A stretch of DNA of 34,279 nt from positions 917,424-951,702 of the forward strand of contig CP070683.1 of the NCBI GenBank assembly GCA_020352645.1, written 5' to 3'. This DNA is from Candidatus Bathyarchaeota archaeon (GTDB taxonomy: Archaea > Thermoproteota > Bathyarchaeia > Bathyarchaeales > SOJC01). Every line of letters starts with the position of its first letter. Positions within the stretch are counted from its first letter, which is position 1. The notes beneath the pieces were generated by a model. That model was not told where the DNA came from, ran no database searches, and saw only the letters and a list, made by a program, of their open reading frames with translations. Both the position numbers and the translations under genes were made by a program. Below are positions 5,801 to 29,440 of this stretch, piece after piece.

Positions 5801-6177
5801 ACATGGTTTCCGATAAGATTCATGCTAGAGCGAGAGGACAGGTGCAAATGCTAACTAGACAGCCCACAGAAGGAAGAGCAAGAGGAGGCGGACTAAGATT
5901 CGGAGAAATGGAGCGGGATTGTTTGATCGGCCATGGTGCGGCAATGCTTCTGAGAGATCGTCTACTTGAAGAGTCAGACAAATATCTTCTTTATGTTTGT
6001 GAGAACTGTGGATACATAGCTTACTACGACATAAAGCGGAGAGAATACATTTGCCGCATATGTGAAGATGACGCTCACATCTCACCTGTTGCGATTTCAT
6101 ATGCGTTCAAGCTGCTCTTGCAGGAATTGATGAGCCTATGTGTTGCACCTCGTTTGAAGCTTACGGAGCGTGCTTAG
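2815..6177 (+). CDS. rpoB: DNA-directed RNA polymerase subunit B (unsplit)
   Basis: RpoB is the second-largest catalytic subunit of RNA polymerase. The 1120-residue chain is full length and collinear with crenarchaeal RpoB: N-terminal REKGLVRQHLDSYNEF, GEDTNDPGGYFIINGSERV, the fork/lobe HALATGNWGRGRVGITQLLDRTN region, NFEARDLHPTHWGRLCPNETPEG, IIPYPEHNQSPRN, VMSFEGYNMEDA, GDKFASRHGQKGVIG, RARGQVQMLTRQPTEGRARG, GGLRFGEMERDCLI and a C-terminal zinc motif (CENCGY, CRIC). It is not divided into B' and B'' as in many euryarchaea. The start is TTG at 2815 with GGAGG eleven bases upstream; an in-frame TGA at 2809 excludes a longer product. rpoA begins two bases after the stop. Confidence 0.98.
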   Translation: MVEITQEELLLLQRSFFREKGLVRQHLDSYNEFIDNGLQQIIAETGEINVEIPESPYKIKLGQAWIIDPQTRISGAYLTEVDGTKHEILPMEARFRSLSYVAPIAVEMTPIIDGREQDTELVLIGDIPVMLKSKLCILSQLQTEELVLYGEDTNDPGGYFIINGSERVIVALEDLAPNRILVDIDTRGAHPVYQAKIFSTTVGFRARIELRVKSDGAIYVTIPGVPSEIPFIIVMRALGVESDKDIAELVSPSESIQNMLELSFEKTVGVETIKEALEYIGNRVAHGQVLEYRLQRAESILDKNFLPHLGRTPEKREEKAVFLGEMASRAMELKLRRRMTDDKDHFKNKRLKLAGPLLADLFRVAFRNLCRDIKYQLERMGFKRQMITVSAAVRPGIISERLQHALATGNWGRGRVGITQLLDRTNLVSTLSHLRRLQSPLSRSQPNFEARDLHPTHWGRLCPNETPEGSNCGLVKNLALSACISVAISAEKVRQVAHGLGVISVQDANRELRLSGAKIFINGSLIGYYQDPSDLAYSLRSRRRIGEISSEINVAHLRTSGGREELYINCDEGRVRRPLIMVENGISNLQPEHIDKIRSGEWLWEDLVKNMLIEYIDAEEEENVYAALSLGEITSKHTHLELSTYTILGICASIIPYPEHNQSPRNSYEAAMAKQALGVYSTNFIYRVDSRSHILHYPQIPLVKTKPMEILGYSERPSGQNCLVAVMSFEGYNMEDALIFNKASIERGLGRSTFNRIYEAECRQYLGGLKDRFLIPEAGMRGFRGEQYYRLLEPDGVVSLEANAAGGDVLIGRTSPPRFLEEYKEFEVKGPSMRDTSIDVRQSEEGIVDAVFVTESREGNKLVKVRVRDERIPELGDKFASRHGQKGVIGMIIPQEDMPFSELGTVPDIVINPHAMPSRMTIGQFLESMAGKMAAARGRPADGTPFTNEESGEIKQTLMKCGFSNTGREVFYSGITGEKFAADIFVGNVYYQKLHHMVSDKIHARARGQVQMLTRQPTEGRARGGGLRFGEMERDCLIGHGAAMLLRDRLLEESDKYLLYVCENCGYIAYYDIKRREYICRICEDDAHISPVAISYAFKLLLQELMSLCVAPRLKLTERA

Positions 6178-6178
6178 A

Positions 6179-9100
6179 ATGGCATTTGAGGAAGTGGCTC
6201 ACAAGATAATAGACCAACTCAGATTCGGGCTTTTTTCGCCTCAGAAAATGAGAAGACTTTCAGTCGCGGAAATCCAAACCGCTGATACCTATGACGAAGA
6301 TGGCGCCCCAATCACCTCAGGCCTGATGGATGGGAGACTTGGCACCCTTGAGCCGAGACAAAGGTGCAAAACGTGTGGCAACACCGCCATCCGATGTCCA
6401 GGGCACTTCGGACACGTTGAACTTGCCGTTCCAATAATCCACATAGAATTCACGAAGGTTATACATAACCTGCTAAGCGCTACATGCAGAAACTGCGGAC
6501 GCATAACACTGCCGGAAGAGCGATTGAATAGAATCAGAGATCGCATCAAAGAAATCCGCAAACTCCTCGGGGAAGTTCCAACTACAGTCTACAAAAAGGT
6601 GTTGAAAGATGCGAAAACAAAGGAATGCCCTTACTGTGGAACACCCCAGTACAAAATAGTTTTCGAAAAGCCAACTCGATACCGAGAAGAAGTACCAGAA
6701 GGCGGTTCTCCACAGTTAACCCCAAGTATTGTTCGCGAACGACTTGAGCGAATACCGAATGAGGATTTGGAGCTTTTTGGCTTTCACCCCCAAACAGCAA
6801 GACCGGAATGGATGGTTCTACAGGTTCTCCTCGTTCCTCCCGTGTATGTTAGGCCATCTATAACTTTGGAGTCTGGAATCCGCTCAGAAGACGATCTAAC
6901 TCACAAATTAGTTGACATCATAAGGATTAACCAGCGACTAAAGGAGAATATGGAGGCTGGAGCTCCAACACTTATCATACAAGACTTGTCAGAATTGCTT
7001 CAATATCATGTGACAACCTATTTCAATAATGAAGCGTCAGGAATTCCACCTGCTAGACATCGATCTGGACGAGCGTTGAAAACTCTCTGCCAACGCCTTA
7101 AAGGAAAGGAAGGTCGTTTTCGAAGCAATCTCTCGGGAAAAAGAGTGGACTTCTCTGCAAGAACTGTCATTTCTCCTGATCCTAATATTGACATCAGTGA
7201 AGTCGGAGTGCCGCTTGCTGTAGCTATGAAACTCTCTATTCCTGACAAAGTGACCGATTGGAACCTTGAGGAAATGCAGACTTTCGTTAAGAATGGACCG
7301 GGCAGGTATCCAGGCGCACTCTATGTGGTTAGACCAGACGGGAAACGAATCCGTCTTGAATTTGTGGTTGATCGCCAGAAGGTTGCCGAGGCGATAGAAC
7401 CTGGTTTTGTTGTAGAAAGACATCTCAAGAATGGAGACGTAGCCATTTTTAATCGTCAACCTTCACTTCATCGAATGTCAATCATGGCTCATTACGTGAA
7501 AGTTCTGCCATACAAGACATTTCGTCTTCACCTGTGTGTGTGTCCCCCGTACAACGCTGACTTTGATGGAGATGAGATGAACCTGCACATACCTCAAAGT
7601 GAAGAGGCCCAAACAGAGGCTCTTATACTGATGCAGGTTCAGGATCAGATACTATCTCCAAGATTTGGCGGGCCTATAATCGGAGCAATTCGAGATTTTA
7701 TCACTTCTGCTTATATATTGACGAAGAAGTCAACATTGCTTTCCAAGGAGGAAGTAACGAGACTGTTGAGTGCAGCAGGATATGAGGGGTTACTACCAAA
7801 ACCTGTAGTAAGAGCACCGAAGCCGAAATGGACTGGGAAACAGATTTTCGGGCTATTCCTTCCGAAGGATTTCAACTATTCGCTGAAAGCTACTATTTGT
7901 CATAGTTGTGTTAAATGCGAAAAAGAGAAGTGTCCTCATGACGCCTTTGTTGTCATTAAGAATGGCAAGCTGAAATCAGGCGTTATCGACAGAAGATCAA
8001 TAGGTGCAGAGCAATCTGAAAGCATTCTTCATCGTATAATAAAAGATTACGGTGCACAAAGAGGGCGACAGTTTCTAAACAATATCTGTCAAATGCTCAA
8101 GCTTTTCATGTCTACACGTGGATTCACCTACTCTTTCGATGAATTGGAGCTTTCACCGAGGGCACAAAACAGAATCGGCAGAACGCTAGCGAAATATGAA
8201 AGAAATGTACAGAAGCTCATTGATGCTTATAGAAAAGGAACACTTCAAAGACTTCCTGGTCAATCTCTACATGACTCATTTGAAATATACGTTATGAATG
8301 AGCTTGCAAAAGCTAGAGATGATGCGGGGAAAATCGCTGATGAAGACTTCACCATCGAGAATGCAGGCATAATAATGACGCGCACAGGAGCGCGAGGCTC
8401 AAATTTGAACATAGGACAGATGACGGCCTCGGTAGGACAGCAGTCTGTACGGGGAAAACGCATTATGCGAGGCTATGTTCAACGAGCTTTACCCCACTTT
8501 GAGCCTGGCGATCCATCCCCTAAAGCGAGAGGTTTCGTTTACTCATCTTATCAATCAGGTCTGGATCCGGTGGAATTCTTTTTCCATGCCATGGGAGGAC
8601 GCGAAGGCTTAGTAGACACAGCTGTGAGAACTCAGCAAAGTGGCTATATGCAAAGACGATTGATTAATGCTCTTGAGCATCTAAGAATAGAGTATGATGG
8701 AACGGTGCGCAATTCCATAGGTGACGTTGTGCAGTTCCGATATGGAGAGGACGGAGTTGATCCCGCAAAAAGCGATCATGGGAAAGCTGTAAACGTTAGC
8801 AGACTCATTGACCAAGCCAGCATCATGATGGGGGGAGGTCGCCCTTCATCAGAGAAGTACATTGAAAAAAGACTAAAGGACTCACAGAATAGACTCACGC
8901 CAAAGTTGATAGATGAATTGGAAACTAACTTGAAAAAGGCGAAGCTGAACAGGAAAGGAGTGGATCGCATCACAGAGCTAACAATGAAACACTACAAGAG
9001 AGCCCTGGTCGAACCTGGTGAAGCTGTTGGCATCGTAGCAGCTCAATCTATAGGTGAACCAGGTACGCAGATGACTCTGCGGACCTTTCACTATGCTGGT

Positions 9101-10003
9101 GTCAGGGAACAGAACGTCACTCTAGGTCTACCTAGACTAATAGAAATCGTGGATGCAAGAAGAATCCCTTCAACGCCTGTCATGGCGATATACCTCGACA
9201 AGATTCATCGCAAAAGCAGAGAAGAAGCCACCAAAATAGCCAGAAGAATCGTCTATACAGCTGTGGAGGACATTGCGAAGGCGGTTTATGATGATCCTAA
9301 GAACGAAGAAATCGTAGTTGAACTTGACAAAACTGTGATGGAAAGTAGAAGTGTCTCAATCGAAGAGACGAGAGATGCGATACAGATCAGCGGATGTACA
9401 ACAAGAAGCCGAGGAAGAAGAATCTATGTGAAACCTAAGAAGATTGAAGACCGTAAGAAGCTCTTAGAAAAGATAATCGCTCACCACGTAAAAGGAGTTC
9501 CAGGTGTCAAGCGTGTTCTGGTTGCTGAAGAAAAGGGCGAATGGGTAATCAGAACAGATGGTTCTAATCTGCCGAAAGTTCTTGAAATCGAGGGAGTAGA
9601 TCCAACGAGATCCACCACTAATCATGTTCACGAAATTGCTAAGATGCTCGGCATAGAAGCAGCCCGTAACTCACTTATCAGGGAGGCATTGGGCGTGTTG
9701 GAAGAGCAAGGCTTGGATGTTGATGTTAGACACATAATGCTGGTTGCAGATATCATGACTGCTACGGGCGAAGTGAGACAGATCGGTCGCCACGGAATCA
9801 GTGGAGCGAAATCCAGCGTGCTGGCTCGAGCAGCCTTTGAAATTACGGTTCCAAACATTGTTGAAGCTGCGATTATGGGTAAATCAGATCCACTGTGCGG
9901 TGTGACCGAAAACGTTATAGTGGGGCAATCTATACCCATTGGCACCGGCCTTGTGAATCTATACATGTCTACTCTGGCTGACAAACAGGAGAAAACCGGA
10001 TGA
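6179..10003 (+). CDS. rpoA: DNA-directed RNA polymerase subunit A, A' and A'' fused
   Basis: This is the largest, catalytic RNA polymerase subunit. Most archaea split it into rpoA1 and rpoA2; here one 1274-residue frame spans both. The N-terminal zinc motifs (CKTCGNTAIRCPGHFGH, CRNCG, CPYCG) are followed by the catalytic loop NADFDGDEMN at about 459-468 with metal-binding D461, D463 and D465. The A'' hallmark EPGEAVGIVAAQSIGEPG follows at about 944, and the chain ends with the usual A'' tail. The zone where other archaea are split falls within the lysine-rich stretch before it, and no stop codon or internal restart is visible. A cysteine cluster CHSCVKCEKEKCPHDAF sits in the A' part. ATG at 6179 is preferred to the GTG at 6170, which would overlap rpoB. 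The last four bases overlap the rpl30e start (ATGA). Confidence 0.97.
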   Translation: MAFEEVAHKIIDQLRFGLFSPQKMRRLSVAEIQTADTYDEDGAPITSGLMDGRLGTLEPRQRCKTCGNTAIRCPGHFGHVELAVPIIHIEFTKVIHNLLSATCRNCGRITLPEERLNRIRDRIKEIRKLLGEVPTTVYKKVLKDAKTKECPYCGTPQYKIVFEKPTRYREEVPEGGSPQLTPSIVRERLERIPNEDLELFGFHPQTARPEWMVLQVLLVPPVYVRPSITLESGIRSEDDLTHKLVDIIRINQRLKENMEAGAPTLIIQDLSELLQYHVTTYFNNEASGIPPARHRSGRALKTLCQRLKGKEGRFRSNLSGKRVDFSARTVISPDPNIDISEVGVPLAVAMKLSIPDKVTDWNLEEMQTFVKNGPGRYPGALYVVRPDGKRIRLEFVVDRQKVAEAIEPGFVVERHLKNGDVAIFNRQPSLHRMSIMAHYVKVLPYKTFRLHLCVCPPYNADFDGDEMNLHIPQSEEAQTEALILMQVQDQILSPRFGGPIIGAIRDFITSAYILTKKSTLLSKEEVTRLLSAAGYEGLLPKPVVRAPKPKWTGKQIFGLFLPKDFNYSLKATICHSCVKCEKEKCPHDAFVVIKNGKLKSGVIDRRSIGAEQSESILHRIIKDYGAQRGRQFLNNICQMLKLFMSTRGFTYSFDELELSPRAQNRIGRTLAKYERNVQKLIDAYRKGTLQRLPGQSLHDSFEIYVMNELAKARDDAGKIADEDFTIENAGIIMTRTGARGSNLNIGQMTASVGQQSVRGKRIMRGYVQRALPHFEPGDPSPKARGFVYSSYQSGLDPVEFFFHAMGGREGLVDTAVRTQQSGYMQRRLINALEHLRIEYDGTVRNSIGDVVQFRYGEDGVDPAKSDHGKAVNVSRLIDQASIMMGGGRPSSEKYIEKRLKDSQNRLTPKLIDELETNLKKAKLNRKGVDRITELTMKHYKRALVEPGEAVGIVAAQSIGEPGTQMTLRTFHYAGVREQNVTLGLPRLIEIVDARRIPSTPVMAIYLDKIHRKSREEATKIARRIVYTAVEDIAKAVYDDPKNEEIVVELDKTVMESRSVSIEETRDAIQISGCTTRSRGRRIYVKPKKIEDRKKLLEKIIAHHVKGVPGVKRVLVAEEKGEWVIRTDGSNLPKVLEIEGVDPTRSTTNHVHEIAKMLGIEAARNSLIREALGVLEEQGLDVDVRHIMLVADIMTATGEVRQIGRHGISGAKSSVLARAAFEITVPNIVEAAIMGKSDPLCGVTENVIVGQSIPIGTGLVNLYMSTLADKQEKTG

Positions 10004-17180: not shown

Positions 17181-17190
17181 AGGCATGAAA

Positions 17191-18945
17191 ATGAGAAAGA
17201 TAATGTTATTCTTTGTGTTACTAGCGTTCTCGCTAACACTAATTCCAGCATTGGTCCCAAACGATGCTTACGGAGCTACCTCGACGCTCATTCAGGTGGA
17301 CAGGATAGATCGCATTGTTACACCTCTTTATGGGGGTCTTCTTCTCGTCAACGACACTGTAAGAATATCCCCCACTGCTGTGAACGCTGTAATCAGGGAT
17401 TTTTCTCTGGGATTTCCTCTGAGCTATAGATCAAACCTTCAACTTGCTATCGCGTATGGCGAAGATCCAGATACGCTACTGGATGTGTTTCTTGACACAG
17501 GGATAGGAGTGATCGGTTACTATGGGATAACAGTAGCTTTTCCTGAAGAAACTCAGAATGCGCTTTATGAGGGGCAACCACATGTGTTCACAGTTGTGTG
17601 GCTATTTCAGGACTTGATTGAATCATCTACGAAGGCCGTGAATGAAACCACAGAGTATGTATTCACATTTGATTTTCCCGTACTTCCCTCTCTAGCTCAA
17701 GAAGCTTCAATCTGCAACACAACTGTTGTCCTACCTGAGAGAACGACATTGAACCAGAGTGGGTTTGCTTTTGAAGTAATTCAACAGGACGACGTACATT
17801 ATTTAGGATACGTAAGAAGCCCGCTTCCAGCTTTTTCTCACACATCCGCAGAGATCAGCTTCAGTTCTGGAGACAAAGATCTTTTTGCATGCTTTTCCGT
17901 TGAAAAGCTGGAAAGGGAAGTGGGTGTCGATACTAGTGGTCGAATCTCGTTCTCGGATCGATTTCTACTGGAGAGCAAGACTGCTTTCGCGATCAGCAAA
18001 ATCCGACTGCAGCTACCTGACGACGCGAGTGGAATCTCTGCATTTGATGAACAAGGAGCAAAGCTGCTTACCAACGTCGCAGTAAACACTTCAAGTGTCT
18101 ATGAAATTTCCCTTGATTTGCTCGTGGGTCAATCGAGAAGTTTCAACCTGGTGTACGACTTGTCTGTTGATGACTCTCTTAATCAGCAAGACTCACAAGC
18201 CTACAGATTCGATCTACGTATCCCTGAGGAGCTGCAGCTAATGCTGATCGATTTCAGACTGAGGATAGTGTTTCCCGAAGGTGCGATTATTGAAGCTTTC
18301 CCAGATGGGAGATTCAGTATTCACAAGGATGTTTTTCAGGAAACTCTTCTTCTGTCGCAACCAAATGTAACATGGTTTGAAAAGGAAGTGTGGGATTTCT
18401 CATTTAGCTACTCTCCTTTCTGGGCATCCTTTAGACCTACCCTGTGGACAACGGCTTTTGTTGTAATCGGGTCGATCATAGCTTTTGCTTGGAAGAGACC
18501 GAAAGCTCCCGCGTCTGTTTCAGTAATTCTTGTGCCGAGGGAAACCTTGAATGAATTTATAGAGACGTATGAAGAAAAGAACAGAACCCTTTCTGATATG
18601 GAGCACCTCAAACAAAGGGCTGTGAAGGGAAGAATTTCAAGGCGCCGATATAAAGTTAGAAAGACTACACTGGAGAACCAAGTCTCTGGGTTATCCAAGA
18701 GACTGGCTGACCTTCGGAAGAAGATTGTAAGCAGCGGGGCGAAATATGTCGCTGTCATGAGACAGCTTGAGGTCGCAGAAACTCAGCTTGACAACATTGA
18801 GGCAGACATTAGGCGGATTGAGATACGATTCAAGCGAGGAGAGTTTTCCGCTCAAACCTATCGACAACTGCTTGAGAACGATCTGCGACGAAAAGAGAGA
18901 GCAAGAACAACCATTGAGGGCGTTCTTCTTAGGCTTAGAGAGTAG
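17191..18945 (+). CDS. Secreted/membrane-anchored protein with C-terminal coiled coil
   Basis: I do not recognise a named family. The 584-residue protein begins with a signal peptide (a basic start, then LFFVLLAFSLTLIPALV and a possible cleavage site near AYGA). About 390 residues of predicted extracellular, beta-rich sequence follow. A single membrane segment (TTAFVVIGSIIAFAW) lies at about 418-433. The cytoplasmic part from about 450 to the end is highly charged and helical, with heptad-like coiled coil (for example EVAETQLDNIEADIRRIEI). Topology is thus outside-in. ATG at 17191 is chosen because GAGG at 17180-17183 is correctly spaced for it; the ATG at 17185 lies one base after that motif. 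It stands alone between its own promoter and the ferredoxin gene. It could be an envelope sensor or anchor, but this is only inferred from topology. Confidence 0.8.
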   Translation: MRKIMLFFVLLAFSLTLIPALVPNDAYGATSTLIQVDRIDRIVTPLYGGLLLVNDTVRISPTAVNAVIRDFSLGFPLSYRSNLQLAIAYGEDPDTLLDVFLDTGIGVIGYYGITVAFPEETQNALYEGQPHVFTVVWLFQDLIESSTKAVNETTEYVFTFDFPVLPSLAQEASICNTTVVLPERTTLNQSGFAFEVIQQDDVHYLGYVRSPLPAFSHTSAEISFSSGDKDLFACFSVEKLEREVGVDTSGRISFSDRFLLESKTAFAISKIRLQLPDDASGISAFDEQGAKLLTNVAVNTSSVYEISLDLLVGQSRSFNLVYDLSVDDSLNQQDSQAYRFDLRIPEELQLMLIDFRLRIVFPEGAIIEAFPDGRFSIHKDVFQETLLLSQPNVTWFEKEVWDFSFSYSPFWASFRPTLWTTAFVVIGSIIAFAWKRPKAPASVSVILVPRETLNEFIETYEEKNRTLSDMEHLKQRAVKGRISRRRYKVRKTTLENQVSGLSKRLADLRKKIVSSGAKYVAVMRQLEVAETQLDNIEADIRRIEIRFKRGEFSAQTYRQLLENDLRRKERARTTIEGVLLRLRE

Positions 18946-27921: not shown

Positions 27922-29175
27922 ATGGAAGTGCCACTCGTATCCGAATCTATCGAAATACGCGCTGAGGGATTGAAGGCTTGGCTTGAGAGAGAAGCAGCCA
28001 AATCCTTGCTGCCTCTCAACAAGCAAGGAGCGAGAATTACTGAGAAGATCGAGGCGCGATTAAGCGATGTTAGAAGAGCCTGCGAAAAGCTAGCAGAAGA
28101 AGCGAAGAAAGAAACCGAAAAAGGAAGGGCAGCAAGAAAATCGAAAGCCACTGAGAAACTTTCTAGATACTTCCTCAAACAGATCGATGCAATCGGTTTC
28201 CCGGATGATATGACTTTCAGTGAGCTGAACAAGGCGCATAGAGACTCAAAAAAAATGCTCTCTCTAGTTTCTCGCGAAAGAGCGGTGTGGTTTCCTAGAA
28301 TCTCACCGCTATTCATCCTTGCGAGAAGACGCGTCGATTTCGCGTTTGTTAGGTTGACGAATGAAATCTCGACTCTTGGAAAATTCCTGAGCGATGATTA
28401 TGTCAGAGCTAGGGACATAGAGAAGCTTCTTTCAGAAAGTGATGAAATTGCAAGATTGCAGGATGCCTTGAATCGAGTAGATAGACGAAAGAGCGTAGTC
28501 GCAAACAGGCTGCAGACTGTTCAGAGTGAGATTGAGGAAAGCCAACGAGGAATTGAAGATGCTGAGAACATAGAACAGCTTGGTGAATTGACAGAGATAA
28601 ATCAGACTATTCAAATGCTGGCTAGTAAGGTAAAACATGAGATTAGACATTTGGAGAAGCCCTTTATCAAGTTCTTGAATCTAAGAAGCGCAGCGTATCC
28701 ACTTGGTTCTGGGGAGGTGGAAAGATTAAACATGTACTTGAAAGATCCTTTTACTGCGCTTGCAATGGAGGAAGATGGCTATCCGATTCTCAAGAGCATA
28801 CTCCTTAAGATAGAGCATGCAATTAACGAAAGCAAGCTCAAGCTAAAGAGGAGCCGATTAAGAAAGGCTCTAGAGGAGATAGATGCTATTTTGAGAAATC
28901 ACAAACTGGAGGCTCTGCAGAAAGATTGTTCCAAAGCATTTTCTCTGAGAAAGCGCCTGATTTCGACGGATGAGACCGCTGCTGCTAAACGTGCATTGAA
29001 GGAGCTTCATGGAAAACTTGCTGAACTGCAAAGACGAAAGAAGTCTATCGAGGCTCGATTCAGCAGAGTGGAAAATCAGCGATTTGAGTTAATAGGAAAG
29101 TTGGGAGAACAAAAGAAAATCATTGAAGATTTGGTGTGTGAAGTCCTCGAAAAGAAGATAAATCTGCGATTCTAA
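27922..29175 (+). CDS. Large coiled-coil protein of unknown function
   Basis: I do not recognise a family. The 417-residue protein is very rich in Lys, Arg and Glu. It has helical, coiled-coil-like segments at about 20-95, 150-245 and 300-405. Between them are less charged parts, one at about 95-145 (WFPRISPLFILARRRVDFAF) and one near 245-290 (PFIKFLNLRSAAYPLGSGEVER), that could form a small folded unit. There is no signal peptide, clear membrane segment, Walker motif or other catalytic signature, so it is not an SMC or Rad50 ATPase, though the composition is similar to their arms. It is divergent from acdB. A palindrome AAGAAC-T-GTTCTT overlaps its stop codon. Confidence 0.72.
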   Translation: MEVPLVSESIEIRAEGLKAWLEREAAKSLLPLNKQGARITEKIEARLSDVRRACEKLAEEAKKETEKGRAARKSKATEKLSRYFLKQIDAIGFPDDMTFSELNKAHRDSKKMLSLVSRERAVWFPRISPLFILARRRVDFAFVRLTNEISTLGKFLSDDYVRARDIEKLLSESDEIARLQDALNRVDRRKSVVANRLQTVQSEIEESQRGIEDAENIEQLGELTEINQTIQMLASKVKHEIRHLEKPFIKFLNLRSAAYPLGSGEVERLNMYLKDPFTALAMEEDGYPILKSILLKIEHAINESKLKLKRSRLRKALEEIDAILRNHKLEALQKDCSKAFSLRKRLISTDETAAAKRALKELHGKLAELQRRKKSIEARFSRVENQRFELIGKLGEQKKIIEDLVCEVLEKKINLRF

Positions 29176-29186: not shown

Positions 29187-29276
29187 GTGTACGATAGGAT
29201 GCAGGTTGCGCCTTTTGATTTGTCGCCGTCGTAACATTGGTCGGGCGGGCGGGATTTGAACCTGCGACACTCCGGT

Positions 29277-29337
29277 TACTGCCTAGGCTGCATGTATGCT
29301 CGGTAGGCTGAGCGAGGCCTACCATGTTGGCAGGCGT
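29277..29337 (-). other. tRNA-Tyr intron 2 (canonical position 37/38)
   Basis: This 61-base intron follows G37. Exon bases CTGT can pair with intron bases GCAG to form the 4-bp central helix, with 3-base bulges AG|A and TA|A at the two cut sites, as splicing endonuclease requires. The helix on the intron side is not obvious, so the motif is of the relaxed type. Inside, GGTAGGC can pair with either GCCTGCC or GCCTACC. Confidence 0.75.
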
Positions 29338-29344
29338 CTACAGC

Positions 29345-29375
29345 GTCTCCGTTTGTCAGCTATAACTGACAAACT
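29345..29375 (-). other. tRNA-Tyr intron 1 (noncanonical, anticodon stem 30/31)
   Basis: This 31-base intron shows a textbook bulge-helix-bulge. Exon CTTC pairs with intron GGAG in a 4-bp central helix. The bulges are CG|A and AC|G, and the intron closes with a perfect 9-bp stem GTTTGTCAG/CTGACAAAC and a 6-base loop. The exon junction has no sequence ambiguity, so the splice sites are fixed to the base. Confidence 0.85.
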
Positions 29376-29440
29376 CGGAAGCTCTACCAAGCTGAGCTAC
29401 CGCCCGATCGGATCTCGCCATTGGTAAAAAAAGGGAGTGG

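Follow-up and report, generated by a model that had tools for sequence, protein, structure and literature searches.

In eukaryotic tRNA-Tyr, the formation of pseudouridine 35 by Pus7, a protein-only enzyme, depends on the intron, and we know of no element antisense to the D-loop in that intron. Why archaeal tRNA-Tyr retains its intron is largely unexplained. In archaea, pseudouridine 35 of tRNA-Tyr is made either by aPus7 or with an H/ACA guide (PMC6313347; PMC7991803), the latter in Sulfolobus and Aeropyrum (Muller 2009, as far as it is related in PMC7991803 and PMC6313347), and archaeal H/ACA RNAs are defined by a K-turn or K-loop (PMC7991803). A tRNA intron that contains a guide has been described for tRNA-Trp, whose 37/38 intron in Haloferax and others carries a box C/D guide, called a unique example in a review (PMC4090602; also PMC11408192). 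Moreover, multi-intron pre-tRNAs with noncanonical bulge-helix-bulge (BHB) motifs have been reported from the Thermoproteales and other archaea (Sugahara 2007/2008, as presented in PMC4090602), and both 30/31, a noncanonical site, and 37/38 are already listed as tRNA intron sites (PMC4090602).

The window, which is the whole stretch of 34,279 nucleotides that was analysed, contains a tRNA-Tyr gene with introns at these two sites. We regard it as an even call whether this tRNA, spliced by an enzyme that is probably of the (alpha-beta)2 type, uses its 37/38 intron as a cis-acting H/ACA-like guide for pseudouridine 35, with the precursor refolding before intron 2 leaves. The gene is built as follows.

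29238-29406, minus strand: tRNA-Tyr(GUA) with two introns, CCA encoded at 29240-29238, recognized by ARAGORN in the spliced form
29376-29406, minus strand: exon 1, tRNA positions 1-30, with the same boundary in the L130, L162 and L202 alleles that are without the 30/31 intron
29345-29375, minus strand: intron 1, 31 nt, site 30/31, placed by its BHB and by conservation in relatives
29338-29344, minus strand: exon 2, positions 31-37, GCTGTAG, anticodon GTA
29277-29337, minus strand: intron 2, 61 nt, site 37/38, placed by its BHB
29241-29276, minus strand: exon 3, positions 38-73, with one A51.C63 mismatch in the T-stem

ARAGORN and gathering-level Rfam detected no such gene in the window, and a permissive Rfam scan matched RF00005 (37.2 bits, 29406-29241), the anticodon arm containing a long insert. 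With both introns removed, ARAGORN reads a tRNA-Tyr(gta) of 77 nt with CCA, and the joined exons make a standard tRNA-Tyr with C1-G72, A73 and the single mismatch noted above. The same two introns are present in six other genomes of the family, and alleles without the 30/31 intron, such as L130, confirm the ends of intron 1. The initial annotation, which had placed a twice-interrupted tRNA-Tyr at 29238-29406 with its second intron at 37/38, is thus upheld by the spliced form and by the relatives. In addition, a second, intron-free tRNA-Tyr gene, which it had named as a possible refutation, was sought and none was found; this gene is the sole tRNA-Tyr copy found in searches of the 1.68-Mb one-contig genome.

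Several minor observations concern the gene and its surroundings. ARAGORN miscalls the unspliced or half-spliced sequence as tRNA-SeC or tRNA-Asn, which can mislead automatic annotation. The A51.C63 mismatch (GCAGG/CCCGC) recurs in several lineages (L146-L151, L167, L168, L130, L133 and L136), while others have CCTGC, and could be explained by C-to-U editing or by a tolerated A.C pair. The flanking M32 peptidase has its closest named relatives in Candidatus Bathyarchaeota, and no tRNA-Tyr was found beside its homologues in named Bathyarchaeota.

Both introns lie in a BHB with a 4-bp central helix and 3-nt bulges, which places the gene among the multi-intron BHB pre-tRNAs. For intron 1, the complete BHB of the initial annotation was recovered, with a central helix CTTC (29381-29378, tRNA C25-C28)/GGAG (29350-29347), bulges CG|A and AC|G of 3 nt each, and a 9-bp intron stem GUUUGUCAG/CUGACAAAC. 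In true 30/31 introns, the central helix has 4/4 pairs in all 47 distinct sequences and is exactly CTTC/GGAG in 45 of them. To follow the introns across relatives, 81 tRNA-Tyr genes of this class were collected by their 5' exon alone, with a plain sequence match blind to the intron; the 30/31 intron is present in 68 of these and absent from 13. For intron 2, the central helix of 4 bp is CTGT (29343-29340, tRNA 32-35)/GCAG (29282-29279), the bulges are AG|A and TA|A, and the exon stem 27-31/39-43 is intact. The motif of this intron is less relaxed than had been proposed: all four central pairs are kept in 84 of 87 genes, and the one element lacking in the window's gene is the helix on the intron side of the bulge. 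Further introns occur in relatives, namely a third one in the T-arm of L190 and L194 (at 53/54) and also of L209 and L210, and one in the D-arm near 23/24 in the tRNA-Tyr of L233 and L264.

The genome encodes exactly two PF01974 proteins. The first retains the catalytic Tyr/His/Lys and aligns nearly end to end with the catalytic subunits of Aeropyrum and Sulfolobus, including the GKPLGIPKPK stretch/GYYGKPLGIPKPK loop, and the second resembles the Methanocaldococcus enzyme with the catalytic His missing. Because a catalytic and a His-less paralogue are both present, the splicing endonuclease fits the (alpha-beta)2 type, known for broad specificity (PMC12397907), as far as an oligomer can be read from its subunits, and the broad specificity suggested at first sight is supported to that extent. 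The 30/31 plus 37/38 layout is of a known kind, shared with Thermoproteales-type pre-tRNAs along with the probable (alpha-beta)2 endonuclease. However, the Thermoproteales-type setting evoked in the initial annotation gives way here to a Bathyarchaeia host, with 30/31 an already listed site, and the 37/38 intron, unlike in those pre-tRNAs, is long and structured.

The main feature of the locus, which the initial annotation had missed, is a module in intron 2 that pairs with the D-loop and with positions 30-34 of the same tRNA. From 5' to 3' it consists of a hairpin, a short and mostly unpaired spacer, CAGCC, an 8-mer, 2 bases and ACA.

29317-29335, minus strand: intron-2 hairpin GCCTGCCA-ACA-TGGTAGGC, candidate upper stem, 7-9 bp predicted in most relatives
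29306-29310, minus strand: CAGCC, complement of exon 30-34 (GGCUG), directly before U35 (helix 2 of the pair count)
29298-29305, minus strand: TACCGAGC, complement of the gene's own D-loop GCTTGGTA with 8/8 pairs, one of them G-U, and with covariation
29293-29295, minus strand: ACA, a box-like trinucleotide at a distance of 15 nt from the start of CAGCC, kept in relatives
29385-29392, minus strand: D-loop segment GCTTGGTA (15-21), the partner of intron 2

The strict module pattern is matched by 77 of the 81 genes in the 5'-exon set; in the four remaining genes, which are variants, the anti-D segment and ACA are retained, so that ACA is present in 81/81. Of 257 Bathyarchaeia genomes, 149 contain the pattern, whereas a reversed-pattern control gives close to zero matches per genome, and many further families in the phylum have it as well. 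A large part of the genes from outside the 5'-exon set was gathered with a pattern that itself contains parts of the module. In L209 and L210, the anti-D segment and ACA are retained and CAGCC is lost. No description of such a conserved self-complementary module was found in the literature searched, and as far as that search goes it is undescribed. Its closest counterpart is the tRNA-Trp C/D intron, likewise a canonical 37/38 intron with a conserved element directed at its own tRNA. In contrast to that system, the tRNA here is tRNA-Tyr, the C box RUGAUGA and D box CUGA are absent from the 61-nt intron by reading, the pairing is with the D-loop and 30-34, an ACA is present, and the target proposed is a pseudouridine.

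Evidence for the pairing comes from complementarity and covariation. The complement of the D-loop matches at every position (8/8) in 81 of the 94 distinct genes. In a pair count on 60 distinct rows of 48 columns, 98.5% of cells are paired overall and 98.7% in the CAGCC helix; sliding the partner lowers pairing to 11-47%, and 33 cells have changed on both sides, giving C-G/U-A at one pair and U-A/C-G/A-U at another. The covariation score is 0.214 vs 0.159 in shuffles, with none of 500 shuffles reaching 0.214, tests of this kind being inflated by the relatedness of the genes. On the same 60 rows, counts of pairs or of pair types are no higher than in the shuffles, since most columns are nearly invariant. 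Compensatory switches are also seen within families, in f1 (L127 vs the rest of f1) and in f8 (L201 vs L202), and L296/L297, whose D-arm is the divergent GCTC-AATGGTA, carry CATTGAGC, the complement of GCTCAATG. In five other inserted tRNAs of the genome that were tested, such complementarity does not exceed 6 bp. Covariation thus establishes, at the level of sequence, the pairing of CAGCC-UACCGAGC with exon 30-34 and the D-loop as a conserved predicted alternative fold of the unspliced precursor.

These data bear on the plainest explanation, in which the gene is an ordinary tRNA-Tyr with two BHB introns and the similarity among intron-2 sequences is due only to common descent and the BHB strand. 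Both sites are known for introns (PMC4090602), and in short introns the ACA coincides with the BHB strand (ACAG), which would account for it there. However, this explanation is already disfavoured by the compensatory changes that link D-loop and intron in several families and by the matched divergent D-arm of L296/L297, and in genes with the BHB strand elsewhere ACA is still invariant while its flanks vary. Splicing alone is therefore insufficient to account for ACA, and we consider the ordinary explanation very improbable. What stands firmly in this picture is the pairing together with the ACA, from which we infer a role in pseudouridine formation.

The proposed self-guide would work as follows. 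In the unspliced precursor, CAGCC-UACCGAGC of intron 2 would pair backwards onto exon 30-34 and the D-loop, with the D-loop/intron helix as the lower stem and the intron hairpin as the upper stem. The D-loop strand would replace the 5' lower-stem strand of a guide's own, and the tether would replace a 5' guide. G34 is the last base in the CAGCC duplex, so that U35 follows at once and would stand unpaired directly beside the duplex, with ACA at the H/ACA distance, allowing Cbf5, which is encoded in the genome, to make pseudouridine 35. In H/ACA RNAs, ACA lies 14-16 nt from the pocket; here, the distance from the start of CAGC, the point facing U35, to ACA is 13-16 nt in all genes and 15 in most. 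The proposed target uridine, the ACA and the spacing are those of the Sulfolobus and Aeropyrum guide. That guide RNA acts on pre-tRNA-Tyr, whereas here the proposed lower stem is shared with the D-loop and there is neither a 5' guide nor a K-turn. The hairpin follows G37 almost directly, which leaves CAGCC as a 3' guide only, and a conventional trans-acting H/ACA guide was judged unlikely for an intron without a 5' guide. No K-turn or K-loop is evident in the hairpins, which are mostly simple with 7-9 bp and have GA on both halves in only 7 of 92. Because of the missing K-turn and 5' guide, the presence of aPus7 and the loss of CAGCC in L209/L210, the module is not classed as an H/ACA sRNA, although it may work like an H/ACA guide.

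A TruD/aPus7 gene is present in the host genome and in 39 of 41 genomes searched, and the idea that absence of aPus7 forces the use of an RNA guide was accordingly rejected. Judged by gene content, aPus7 alone could make pseudouridine 35. It is conceivable that the intron fold presents U33-G37 (UGUAG, a Pus7-type site) to stand-alone aPus7 without Cbf5, and the position of U35 in a short unpaired stretch between two helices would suit this as well as the wide occurrence of the gene does. But such a mode of action predicts neither the ACA nor its spacing of 13-16 nt, and two genomes without detected TruD (G030 and G256) retain the module, so we rate it as improbable, if less so than the ordinary explanation.

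Folding predictions bear on when the proposed self-guide could act. The full precursor of the window folds better than 200/200 shuffles (z = -5.2), and its predicted minimum-energy structure combines the D-loop/intron helix, an arm of intron 1 and the CAGC/hairpin arm, the intron-1 arm being one base off the BHB register. For precursors without intron 1, the predicted stability of the self-pairing fold exceeds that of cloverleaf plus second BHB in 70 of 87 genes, the mean difference being 2.8 kcal/mol. The first BHB requires positions 25-28, the second requires the stem 27-31/39-43 and 32-35, and the guide fold requires 15-21 and 30/31-34. Because 25-28 overlaps the stem 27-31, the two BHBs are mutually exclusive; they cannot form together, which makes a fixed order of splicing plausible. 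Such an order had been guessed in the initial annotation, and the modelled guide fold supplies a concrete reason for it, short of proof. Intron 1, at the junction of the guide fold, could form a separate arm within the intact fold and could leave from it, while intron 2 could not. After the loss of intron 1, the precursor would refold to give the cloverleaf and the second BHB, and intron 2 would then be excised, making the likely order intron 1, pseudouridine 35, intron 2.

The same alternative fold, backed by covariation and competing with the cloverleaf, might be a folding switch only, in which the D-arm and anticodon arm are held apart so that the first BHB can form, or premature folding and processing are blocked, with no role in modification. 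The first BHB does need 25-28 free of both the D-stem and the anticodon stem. However, the module is kept without the 30/31 intron in 13 of the 81 genes, in L130 and in most genes outside Bathyarchaeia, so it is not there for intron 1, and a module serving intron 1 only was rejected for this reason. A switch also leaves the invariant ACA at a fixed distance unexplained. We hold a pure switch to be unlikely, yet the most credible of the three alternatives.

Extended to the phylum, the self-guide would define an old class of tRNA-Tyr introns whose precursors act as their own H/ACA-type guides, with the D-loop as one strand of the lower stem, a generalization to which we give slightly less than an even chance. 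The covarying helix and the invariant ACA offer a testable reason for the retention of the archaeal tRNA-Tyr intron. If the self-guide is real, the intron serves both modification and the order of processing, and its loss would cost the modification of U35, which would be tied to the unspliced precursor. After the tRNA-Trp C/D intron, it would also be the second case of a tRNA intron that guides a modification; to our knowledge, neither a tRNA-intron guide for pseudouridine nor a guide that shares a strand with its own substrate has been known. As in the eukaryotic Pus7 system, a tRNA-Tyr intron is here proposed to be tied to U35 modification, and the comparison is relevant to the retention, in eukaryotic tRNA-Tyr, of an intron on which pseudouridine 35 depends.

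Three minor observations remain. The cbf5 gene of the same genome is itself split, after the first letter of its catalytic Asp codon, by a 33-nt BHB intron (L318:1700-1732; C1 near 1475315-1475455) with helices GGGA/UCCC and CCUU/AAGG and bulges AG|A and AA|A. In a 2009 survey, the cbf5 intron was reportedly listed in Crenarchaeota and absent in Cenarchaeum, Nitrosopumilus and Korarchaeum. In the window, two long ORFs are without a Pfam match, at 17185-18945 on the plus strand (586 aa) and at 27922-29175 on the plus strand (417 aa), the latter stopping just short of the oppositely oriented tRNA gene. RNA polymerase subunits A' and A'' are separate in most archaea, and an ORF at 6170-10003 on the plus strand (1277 aa) contains all five Rpb1 domains and represents a fused A' + A''.
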